Below, one piece after another: positions 13,401 to 31,109 of a DNA stretch of 64,000 nucleotides. The stretch lies in the NCBI GenBank assembly GCA_016235345.1, contig JACRLG010000007.1:186001-250000 (forward strand), given 5' to 3'. The translations under genes and the position numbers were made by a program. The stretch comes from Deltaproteobacteria bacterium (GTDB lineage Bacteria > Desulfobacterota > Desulfobacteria > Desulfobacterales > Desulfatibacillaceae). Under the pieces are notes generated by a model. The model ran no database searches and was not told the DNA's origin. It worked only from the letters and a program-made list of their open reading frames with translations. Numbering within the stretch: position 1 is the stretch's first letter; each line of letters opens with the position of its first letter.

Positions 13401-14132
13401 TCACCCGGCAAGGTTCTTTTCGGCAAAATCCCAGTTTACAAGGTGGTCCAGCCAGGCCGCAGCGTAATCGGCCCTTTTGTCCTGGTAGTCCAGGTAGTAG
13501 GCGTGCTCCCAGACGTCCAGGCAAAGGAGCGGGACGGCCGATGACGTGACCGGGGTGTCGGCGTTTTGGGTCTTCGCCACCACGAGTTTTCCACCGTCGT
13601 TTACAAGCCACACCCAGCCGCTTCCGAACACCGATGAGGCCGCGTCCAGGAAGGCCTTTCTGAAGGCATCTTGGCTACCGAAGGACTTGTCGATGGCCTT
13701 TTTTACGGCCCCGCCCGGAACGCCCCCGCCTTTCGGCTTCATGGAAAGCCAGAAAAAGGCGTGGTTATTCGCCTGGGCCGCGTTGTTGAAGATGGCCGCC
13801 GCCCTGGGGTCCTTGTGGGATTTCCTGATGATGGCCAAAATATCCATTTCGGAATATTCCGTGCCCTTGATCAGTTCCCCAAGTTTTTTGACGTAGTTTG
13901 CGTGATGGCGGCCATGATGAAAATTGAGGGTCTTCTCGCTCATGAACGGGGCAAGGGCGTTCGCGGGGTAGGGCAGGGGGGGCAGGGCCAGGGACGAAAG
14001 CGCCTCTTCCGCCCCCTTTTTCCCGCATCCCGAAAAAAGCGCGGTTCCGCCCCCGGCGGCCAGGACCAGGGCTCCGGCCATCGCCGCCTTTACGAAGGCC
14101 CGGCGCGATTCAGCAAAAGGCTCATCCTTCAT
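13401..14132 (-). CDS. Fe/Mn superoxide dismutase, Tat-exported probable lipoprotein
   Basis: A 243-residue SOD. The N-terminus has a textbook twin-arginine motif SRRAFVK (9-15), a hydrophobic stretch AGALVLAAGGG and a Cys36 in LFSGCGKK that fits a lipobox, so the enzyme should be folded in the cytoplasm and anchored outside. The metal ligands are seen in NFHHGRHHANYVKKL, NNHAFFWLSM and CLDVWEHAYYLDYQ (His, His, Asp, His). Metal preference (Fe or Mn) is undetermined. It protects the periplasm from superoxide and lies next to a periplasmic DUF1573 candidate selenoprotein. Confidence 0.92.
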   Translation of the reverse strand: MKDEPFAESRRAFVKAAMAGALVLAAGGGTALFSGCGKKGAEEALSSLALPPLPYPANALAPFMSEKTLNFHHGRHHANYVKKLGELIKGTEYSEMDILAIIRKSHKDPRAAAIFNNAAQANNHAFFWLSMKPKGGGVPGGAVKKAIDKSFGSQDAFRKAFLDAASSVFGSGWVWLVNDGGKLVVAKTQNADTPVTSSAVPLLCLDVWEHAYYLDYQDKRADYAAAWLDHLVNWDFAEKNLAG

Positions 14133-14188: not shown

Positions 14189-14953
14189 TCATTTGCCTTG
14201 GGGGGGCGAGACCGGAAGTTGTTTCACCGCCGGGAAAAAAATGTCGCCCTGGACCTCCACCCGCAGGGACTGGCAGGTTTTGCTGTCCGTGTCGAGGTAG
14301 ATTGAGCCGAAATACCCGCCCTTGGAGGGCCACAGGTTTTCGATGGTGAGCACCCAGCCGTTGGGGGTCTTTTCCAGGGCGTGCCTGAACTGGCTCGTGT
14401 TCAGAGGTACCTGCCGTGTGCCCTTTATCCTGAACGGATACTTGGGATTGGGCGCGATGGTGACCTTCTGGATCATTTTCTGGCCCGCCGGGCCGCTGAA
14501 CCTTACGAATTTCGGGCTTATGGTGGCGCAGACGTCCACCGGGCCCTCCATGTAAAGGGTCGTTTCCCTGTTTTTGGGGTCGTTGGTCTTGACCACCACC
14601 GCCTTGTTCATGCGCATGCCACCGTAACCGAGCGTTTCCACCGACAATGTTATGGTTCCCTCGCCGCCGGGAGGGATGCTCCTCGAATAAGAGGAGGCAG
14701 TGCAGCCTCAGGCGGTTTTTACCTGCTCGATGATAAGCTCTGCAGCTCCCCTGTTGCGGACGGGAAAGGTGTGCTTCACCTTTTCCCCCTCAATGGCCGT
14801 GGTCCACGAGTATTTTACATGGCCGAATTCCGCCTTGGGGGTTCCGGGCCCGGCCAGGGCCGCTCCCTGGTCCTCCGGGGCCGCTGCGCCTATCAGGAAG
14901 GCCAGCGCGGCCAGTGCAAGGCAGCCGTAACAGAATGTTTTGATCTTCCTCAT
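14189..14953 (-). CDS. Periplasmic DUF1573 protein with in-frame UGA (candidate selenoprotein)
   Basis: Reading minus from ATG 14953 gives a signal peptide (CLALAALAFLIGAAA) and a DUF1573 Ig-like domain start ending ...IIEQVKTA, then TGA (14708-14710) and, in the same frame without any shift, GCTASSYSRSIPPGGEG... continuing 172 codons to 14189. DUF1573 proteins normally read C-G-C-T at this point; the TGA replaces the first Cys, residue 82. The downstream frame keeps typical features such as VETLGYGG and VVVKTNDPKNRETTLY, so it is not decayed. The simplest reading is selenocysteine insertion giving a 254-residue protein with a U-G-C redox motif. A pair of separate ORFs, a nonsense mutation or a sequencing error remain alternatives. 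Function of DUF1573 is unknown; a periplasmic redox role fits the adjacent SOD. Confidence 0.7.
14677..14699 (-). promoter_or_regulatory. Stem-loop just after the UGA (possible bacterial SECIS)
   Basis: Starting 8 nt after the UGA, the minus strand folds as TG[C]CTCCTC-TTATTC-GAGGAGCA: an 8-bp stem with one bulged C and a 6-nt loop whose first base is 17 nt from the UGA, within the distance range of bacterial SECIS elements. The loop lacks the G usually found in its first two bases, so the match is partial. Confidence 0.45.
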
Positions 14954-15085: not shown

Positions 15086-15607
15086 TCAAGGCCGCGTCGG
15101 TTCACCGCCCGGCCACAACACCTCGCGCCGGAATCCCCCGGTTATGGTGTCAACAAGGCAGAAGCCCGCTTGTTCGTCCTTCCCCATTATCTCGCCGGGG
15201 TTGAGAAGGAGCGTTCCGCCCTCCTTGCGGGAGAAATGCTGATGGGTGTGGCCGTAGCACACCAGCCGGTATTTCCCTTCGGAAAAAAGCCCCAAGGCGG
15301 TTTCCCGGTAATGGGTGAAGGCCGCCGCAAATCCGTTTCCATCGTCGATTCTGCCCCACTCGCCGTGAAAGGTGATGTTGTGAAACTTTGTGAGGGAAAA
15401 TTTGGTGAGCAGAAACCGGTCGCCGTCGTTGTTGCCGAAAACAGCGTGAACCGGCAGGCCCGATCCTGCCAGAATCGGCAGCATGAAGGGGGCCACCAGG
15501 TCGCCGCAGTGGATTATCATGCCAGCGCCCTTTTCCACGGCTGCGGATACGGCTCTTTTCAGGTTTTCCATGTGATCGTGGCTGTCGCTCATGACCGCTA
15601 TGATCAT
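15086..15607 (-). CDS. YfcE/MJ0936-type metallophosphoesterase
   Basis: A 173-residue calcineurin-like phosphodiesterase with all family motifs: MSDSHD (D, H at 7-10), HCGDLVAP, VFGNNDGDR and YGHTHQHF. It binds two metal ions and hydrolyses phosphodiesters; physiological substrates of the family are unclear. It precedes the M16 peptidase stop by a short gap and is transcribed in the same direction, so it could be the last gene of that operon. Confidence 0.88.
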   Translation of the reverse strand: MIIAVMSDSHDHMENLKRAVSAAVEKGAGMIIHCGDLVAPFMLPILAGSGLPVHAVFGNNDGDRFLLTKFSLTKFHNITFHGEWGRIDDGNGFAAAFTHYRETALGLFSEGKYRLVCYGHTHQHFSRKEGGTLLLNPGEIMGKDEQAGFCLVDTITGGFRREVLWPGGEPTRP

Positions 15608-29310: not shown

Positions 29311-29541
29311 TTATTTAAGCCAGCCCTTCACCTCGTCCTTTTTCGGAACCTTGCCCACGCATTTGACTTGGCCGTTCACCACCACCGAAGGGGTGCCGAA
29401 CACCCCGAACTTGCTTATTTCAAGCAGGTCGGTCACCTTTTCGATTTTTGCGTCAACCTTGGATTCGGCAACGGCCTCACGCACGATTTCCTCGGTCTTT
29501 TTGCACTTGGCGCAGCCAGGACCCAACACCTTGATTTCCAT
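29311..29541 (-). CDS. Small thioredoxin-like (redox-active disulfide) protein
   Basis: A 76-residue thioredoxin-fold protein with active site GCAKCKKTEE (C10-x2-C13) and the cis-Pro loop VFGTPSVVVNGQ. It matches the MTH895/TM0996-type small disulfide proteins that often accompany permeases of the ArsP/YraQ type. No signal peptide, so cytoplasmic. It sits 15 nt after the permease gene. Confidence 0.88.
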   Translation of the reverse strand: MEIKVLGPGCAKCKKTEEIVREAVAESKVDAKIEKVTDLLEISKFGVFGTPSVVVNGQVKCVGKVPKKDEVKGWLK

Positions 29542-29556
29542 GTAATAATTTCCTTT

Positions 29557-30669
29557 TCAGAACAAAAAGTTGAAAAGATAGCCCACAAGCAGAATCCCTG
29601 TGCCCACCACCCCCACGAAGACGCCTATCAGGCGCGGTTTCAACACTTTGCGGAGTATGATGATCTCCGGCAGCGAAAGGGCGATCACAGCCATCATGAA
29701 GGCCAGCACGGTTCCCAGGGCCGCCCCTTTTCCAAGCAGGGCCTGTACTATGGGGATGATGCCCGCCGCGTTGGAGTACATGGGAATGCCGATTAAAACC
29801 GACAGGGGCACAGACCACCAGGCTGATTTGCCCATGAAGGAGGCCATGAAGCCTTCGGGAACGTACCCGTGGATACCTGCCCCGACGGCGATTCCAAGCA
29901 TGACCCAGGGCCAGACCCTGCCCACGATGTCGCGCACAGCGTCAAGGCCATACCGGATGCGGTCGGCCCAACCCATTGGGCCTTCATCAATGCCGAGGCT
30001 TCCTGACTGAATCTGGAAAACCCAGTCTTCCAGGTGTTTTTCCATTTTGAGCCGCCCGATCACCCAGCCCGCGACAATTGCAATGGCGAGGCCGGTGCCC
30101 ATGTAAATGGCGGCCACCTTCCAGCCGAAGAGCCCGTAGAGAAGAACCACGGCGATTTCGTTGACCATGGGCGCGGATATCAGAAAGGAGAAGGTGACGC
30201 CCAAAGGTACTCCGGTTGTGACAAAGCCCAGAAAAAGCGGAACCGCCGAGCAGGAGCAGAAGGGGGTGACTATTCCAAGAAAGGCCGCCAGCACGTTTCC
30301 CACGGACTCGCGCTTCCCGGCCAGAATGGCGCGGGTGCGCTCCGGGGTGAAAAAGCTCCGCACGATTCCCACGCCGAAAACCACCAGGGTGAGCAGCATC
30401 AGCACCTTGGGGGTTTCAAACACGAAAAAACTGATGGCACTTCCCAGATGGCTGTTTGGCGCAAAACCGGCGACACCGGCCAAAATCCCGGTGAAAAAAT
30501 CCGCAGCAGGGGCAAGGTTTCTGTAAACCAGGAACCAAGCCACAAGGGCTGCCATGCTTCCTGCAATGTAAACTACAAGGCCGGGCCGACCTGTTTTGAC
30601 AGGTTCGTCGGGGTCGCTGGCGGCCTTTTTTTCTGTTGCGCAGGCGCATTCCATGCCGGTGGGTTCCAT
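29557..30669 (-). CDS. ArsP/YraQ-type permease
   Basis: A 370-residue membrane protein of the DUF318 permease family (about eight to ten spans) with the conserved FLGIVTPFCSCSAVPLFLGF segment, whose Cys pair is implicated in binding trivalent arsenicals in ArsP, and GIPMYSNAAGIIPIVQALL. The N-terminus MEPTGMECACATEK carries a CxC. The start at 30669 follows GGAGGAGAA; an alternative GTG at 30762 overlaps arsR but has no ribosome site. It probably exports an arsenical or another metal/metalloid. Confidence 0.85.
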   Translation of the reverse strand: MEPTGMECACATEKKAASDPDEPVKTGRPGLVVYIAGSMAALVAWFLVYRNLAPAADFFTGILAGVAGFAPNSHLGSAISFFVFETPKVLMLLTLVVFGVGIVRSFFTPERTRAILAGKRESVGNVLAAFLGIVTPFCSCSAVPLFLGFVTTGVPLGVTFSFLISAPMVNEIAVVLLYGLFGWKVAAIYMGTGLAIAIVAGWVIGRLKMEKHLEDWVFQIQSGSLGIDEGPMGWADRIRYGLDAVRDIVGRVWPWVMLGIAVGAGIHGYVPEGFMASFMGKSAWWSVPLSVLIGIPMYSNAAGIIPIVQALLGKGAALGTVLAFMMAVIALSLPEIIILRKVLKPRLIGVFVGVVGTGILLVGYLFNFLF

Positions 30670-30758
30670 TCGCGTTCTCCTCCAAAAGAGCCGGTTTGCC
30701 CGGCAACCTTTTTTATAGTTCGGAATATGGCGATATAGCTCGCCAAAAATTTTTTTGT

Positions 30759-31109
30759 TCACCTGTTTCTGGAGCAGATATCCTCCCGGCGTATTCCGGG
30801 AAGGCGCGCCACAACACCCCTTACGCCGGGGTCGTCATCGAGCCAGTGGCGCAGGTTGCCCAAGAGGCTCGAAGCATAAGGGTTTTGAGCGCCGTCCGCC
30901 AGGGAGTAATTCACCCACAGGCCCTCCTTGCTGAAATTGACCAGTCCGGCGTCCTCAAGTATCTGAAGGTGCTTGCTGGCCGTGGACTGTGCGATTCCGA
31001 GCGCCTCCTGAATTTCGCACACGCACATCACGCGCTTTTGGAGCATCTTCAACATTTTGACCCGGCTTGGGTCTGAAAGGGCCTTCATTACCTTTACAAA
31101 TGCTTTCAT
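30759..31109 (-). CDS. arsR: ArsR/SmtB family metalloregulator
   Basis: A 116-residue winged-helix repressor. Helix-turn-helix residues are IQEALGIAQSTASKHLQILEDAGLV; the preceding MCVCEIQ holds the CxC metal(loid) site typical of As(III)-sensing ArsR. Start at 31109 is chosen because a GGAGG lies 5 nt before it; an ATG four codons earlier overlaps that site. It heads the eight-gene operon ending with the CcdA-like gene and should repress it through the palindrome at 31133-31144. Confidence 0.92.
   Translation of the reverse strand: MKAFVKVMKALSDPSRVKMLKMLQKRVMCVCEIQEALGIAQSTASKHLQILEDAGLVNFSKEGLWVNYSLADGAQNPYASSLLGNLRHWLDDDPGVRGVVARLPGIRREDICSRNR

Follow-up and report, generated by a model that had tools for sequence, protein, structure and literature searches.

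An OS_HP2-family DUF1573 gene with a predicted selenocysteine codon in a member of the Desulfatibacillaceae

The DUF1573 gene described here, which lies within a window of 64,000 nucleotides (the whole stretch of DNA that was analysed), very probably encodes a selenoprotein of the OS_HP2 family with selenocysteine (Sec) inserted at an in-frame UGA; judged from sequence comparisons, we put the probability of this reading at about 95%. Sec had been proposed at this codon in a preliminary description of the window, and the proposal is supported by the Sec machinery of the genome, by exchange between TGA and Cys codons among relatives and by a covarying SECIS-like stem. In the proposed mechanism, the internal UGA (codon 82) would be decoded as Sec by SelB and tRNA-Sec(UCA) under the direction of a stem-loop, the apical loop of which begins 18 nt downstream of the UGA. 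The predicted product has 254 residues in two Ig-like domains and, to judge from its signal peptide, would be exported to the periplasm. Sec82 and Cys84 would make up a U-G-C pair, placed in the first domain where a turn leads into a strand; this selenol-thiol pair may cycle via a selenenylsulfide or bind a soft metal.

The interrupted frame and the Sec machinery of its genome

The minus-strand frame reads MRKIKTFCYGCLALAALAFLIGAAAP...VKTA*GCTASSYSRSIPPGGEG...SPPQGK*, with a single internal TGA, codon 82, flanked by VKTA and GCTASSYSRSIPPGG, and all 172 codons 3' of this TGA are intact up to the terminal stop (Table 1). The Pfam DUF1573 match (PF07610; residues 43-139) runs across the TGA with 65.3 bits against a gathering cut-off of 26.1, and has an E of 8e-16 in a genome-wide search. 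Ahead of it are the features of a signal peptide: a K/R-rich start, a hydrophobic stretch and AAA preceding PEDQ. Translation and Pfam match thus bear out the earlier account of a signal-peptide-led DUF1573 frame that is interrupted at residue 82 and undamaged beyond it, and alignment agrees with its placing of residue 82 at the first Cys of the CGC motif.

Table 1. Positions of the features discussed, in the numbering of the window
Feature	Positions	Strand	Basis
OS_HP2-family DUF1573 selenoprotein gene (predicted); 254 aa with UGA read as Sec	14189..14953	-	profile matches, frame translation
In-frame TGA, codon 82, putatively read as Sec; position 1 of the U-G-C motif	14708..14710	-	
TGC, Cys84; invariant partner cysteine in the U-G-C motif	14702..14704	-	alignment
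SECIS-like stem-loop; 6 pairs, 14696-14691 with 14684-14679; loop UUAUUC	14679..14696	-	covariation in TGA-bearing relatives
Predicted N-terminal signal peptide; approximate boundary	14882..14953	-	sequence; helix 7-21 of the model
First Ig-like domain (DUF1573 / HYDIN-VesB-like), residues ~42-140; contains the U-G-C turn	14534..14830	-	
Second beta-sandwich domain, residues ~141-240	14234..14533	-	
Fe/Mn superoxide dismutase, probably exported; 56 bases downstream, same strand	13401..14132	-	
YfcE-type phosphodiesterase, upstream, same strand	15086..15607	-	

The preliminary description had proposed searching the genome for selA, selB, selC and selD, and all four are present in the source assembly (4.01 Mb, 36 contigs). 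Its selB scores above the curated cut-off, its tRNA-Sec scores above the Rfam cut-off and carries the anticodon UCA, and both selA and selD were found. The UxxK site of the selD gene (L028, G000:C7:113791-114720) contains a TGA (motif G-UGA-AAK), and this gene is itself likely to encode a selenoprotein, with the in-frame TGA in RASG-U-AAK. A scan of the window for long frames interrupted by a single TGA, judged by eye, gave no convincing second selenoprotein.

Codon exchange among relatives and the SECIS-like stem

Homologues are present in 258 of 291 sampled genomes of the same order (E<=1e-8), and among the matches listed in that search nearly all of the best homologues contain a single TGA. 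At the aligned codon, the 92 same-order copies that were extracted have TGA in 79 cases, TGC in 12 and TGT in 1, and no other residue is encoded there. Eighty-one copies from named records, drawn from Desulfobacterales and other Deltaproteobacteria (among them Desulfosarcina, Desulfonema, Desulfocicer and two Olavius symbionts, L128 and L148), have TGA in 78, TGC in 2 and TGT in 1; both symbiont homologues carry TGA at the Sec codon. TGA-interrupted and uninterrupted copies are both seen in the wider phylum. A quick tree requires about 5 changes of the Sec/Cys label and groups most of the Cys copies in a single supported clade. A second DUF1573 gene on another contig of the source genome has TGA at the identical codon (VHTG-UGA-GCAAAYYTREIPAGG); this diverged paralogue, with ~32% identity (L002:1180-1914, G000:C26, minus strand), is also an OS_HP2-family DUF1573 selenoprotein gene by its sequence. 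In four relatives (L087, L096, L102 and L110) the upstream part of the chosen frame resembles an OmpA-like C-terminal domain, which suggests either that this domain is fused to the DUF1573 selenoprotein or that the start was wrongly chosen.

Standard gene calling closes the frame at codon 82, as it would if the TGA were a genuine stop left by a nonsense mutation, with a pseudogene and an 81-residue remnant as the result. A chance TGA is excluded by its recurrence: 79 of the 92 order-wide copies have TGA at this codon, and the remainder have exclusively Cys codons. Apart from the TGA the frame is intact, the Sec machinery is present in the genome, and dN/dS against a same-genus copy is 0.27 before the TGA (0.325/1.195) and 0.28 after it (0.214/0.767); by this measure purifying selection is equal on either side. 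We give a true stop almost no credence, and the pseudogene reading is rejected, refuted by conservation of the codon. The mixture of TGA, TGC and TGT at one codon is what the preliminary description had named as support for Sec, and the downstream decay that it had named as counter-evidence is not seen.

A stem-loop at SECIS distance had also been claimed, and its position is correct. Numbered from the U of UGA (position 1), the stem joins 14-20 to 27-33 and encloses a loop of six bases; in the window gene six of these seven common pairs form and the loop is UUAUUC. The wider fold of the single sequence has a z of -1.3 relative to shuffles, and because this is not significant we set single-sequence folding aside as evidence for a SECIS and relied instead on covariation over relatives. 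Mean pairing in 77 TGA copies is 5.60 of 7, a value reached by 0 of 2000 shuffles that keep each protein and the codons of each column (5.21 +/- 0.05), and random synonymous recoding of the TGA copies gives 3.97 pairs. When all seven-pair helices were scanned blind, registers of this one stem took the four highest z-scores (8.3, 7.7, 7.3 and 6.4), and in an 18-sequence subset the covariation score was reached by 0 of 500 shuffles and was lost when the partner strand was slid. Kinship among sequences inflates covariation counts, and the control on Cys copies therefore carries weight: the twelve Cys copies average 3.33 of 7 pairs, no clear excess over the 2.91 of their own null, and a blind helix scan of these copies, which are fewer, found nothing comparable. 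On these comparisons, the SECIS-like stem covaries in TGA genes beyond what protein coding accounts for, and is not kept in Cys-coding genes.

The element may depart from the textbook form. In the published bacterial SECIS consensus the apical loop has a G close to its start; the loop of the window gene has none there, and a G at loop position 1 occurs in about one fifth of relatives. The paralogue has its stem in another register, with 2 of the 7 common pairs and an alternative 4-bp stem. No family reached its gathering score in an Rfam scan of the whole window.

Reassignment of stop codons is known in other lineages, and the UGA might accordingly be read as another amino acid, for instance as Trp under code 4 or by near-cognate readthrough. 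TGA, however, terminates this same frame and many neighbouring ones, the substitutes at codon 82 are TGC and TGT and never TGG, and there is a tRNA-Sec as well as a covarying stem associated with the UGA. Reassignment is rejected on these grounds; we rate it as highly improbable, if a shade less so than a true stop.

Family membership and the U-G-C site

The gene is a further member of the known OS_HP2 selenoprotein family. It scores 116.8 bits on the NCBIfam model NF041425, 'OS_HP2 family (seleno)protein', against a curated cut-off of 100, and the residues of the model's motif, U82, G83 and C84, are present in columns that are invariant across 31 sequences. We found no feature that distinguishes it from OS_HP2 of the Olavius symbiont, with which it shares the UGC motif, the Sec position and the TGA of the two Olavius symbiont homologues; the source genome has two Sec copies. 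An OS_HP2 DUF1573 selenoprotein was reportedly described by Zhang and Gladyshev in 2007 in a deltaproteobacterial symbiont of Olavius algarvensis. The 2008 ocean (GOS) survey has an OS_HP2 entry (pfam07610, UxC; PMC2398784), and DUF1573 (PF07610, UGC motif) is given as a predicted selenoprotein in reviews of 2022 (PMC9312934, citing the 2007 Olavius algarvensis study) and 2026 (PMC13188914). DUF1573 has therefore had a known Sec form for almost two decades, and the label of candidate new selenoprotein, given in the preliminary description with the proviso that such a form might already have been described, does not hold. Cys-coding DUF1573 proteins (PF07610) share the domain, a CGC at the same place and a similar N-terminal leader, but have TGC or TGT for TGA and lack the covarying downstream stem.

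An AlphaFold model, built from the 31-sequence alignment with Cys substituted for Sec, has a mean pLDDT of 91 and two beta-sandwich domains. The first domain matches VesB/VesC, HYDIN and PapD-like Ig domains (Z ~9-12, 2-3.3 A, ~95-104 residues). It resembles the HYDIN/CFA65/VesB-like Ig domain (PF22544) in both fold and sequence profile, whereas the solved structures matched come mainly from eukaryotic cilia proteins and secreted proteases. The best match in a PDB sequence search is a weak one, to the uncharacterised Porphyromonas protein 2qsv (E 0.013). Residues 81-83 form a turn in the model that links strands 73-80 and 84-89. Positions 82, 83 and 84 are invariant, with U/C-G-C the sole invariant Cys pair in the alignment, and the Sec82-Cys84 selenol-thiol pair is therefore likely to be the active site.

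We infer that the site serves an exported selenol/thiol function in redox chemistry or soft-metal handling, two roles that the data here do not separate. A redox role of the predicted Sec82-Cys84 site, taken alone, is slightly favoured. The alternative differs in the role of the site only: Sec would be inserted, but the U-G-C site would bind or sequester a soft metal (Hg, Cu or similar) and would not catalyse redox chemistry. The U-x-C in a turn of a modelled Ig-like domain, with no thioredoxin fold, is consistent with metal binding, as is its standing as the lone invariant Cys pair, and several of the selenoproteins first described alongside OS_HP2 are mercury or metal related. Against this, the recurrent neighbours include no conspicuous metal-resistance genes, and the superoxide dismutase adjoining in the source genus hints at oxidative stress. 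We regard metal binding as plausible and the less probable of the two.

Gene neighbourhood and breadth of the family

That superoxide dismutase is probably exported, because its N-terminal leader (RRAFVKAAMAGALVLAAGGGTALFSGC) is twin-arginine-like or lipobox-like; among the loci checked it adjoins the selenoprotein gene only in the same genus. YfcE likewise lies upstream at various other loci of the order. Across 80 loci a PriA-like gene lies upstream in 38 and a HAD-type phosphatase downstream in 57; these names come from reading the sequences and not from profile search, and such neighbours say little about a redox role. Elsewhere in the window (29311-30762, minus strand), a permease-like frame has a small thioredoxin-like protein (GPGCAKCKK) immediately after it.

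A wider proposal is more doubtful than either role of the site: that U-G-C on an Ig-like (HYDIN/VesB-type) and not a thioredoxin-like scaffold may serve widely in Desulfobacterales as an exported site with a redox or metal function, present in most sampled genomes, predominantly in the Sec form and with a non-textbook SECIS loop.

On the reading favoured here, a true selenoprotein would have been recognisable from the raw sequence through one TGA. Most of the genomes sampled from the order have OS_HP2, the great majority in what appears to be the Sec form and with a few changes between Sec and Cys; this breadth, together with the invariant U-G-C site, makes the protein a sensible choice for biochemical study.
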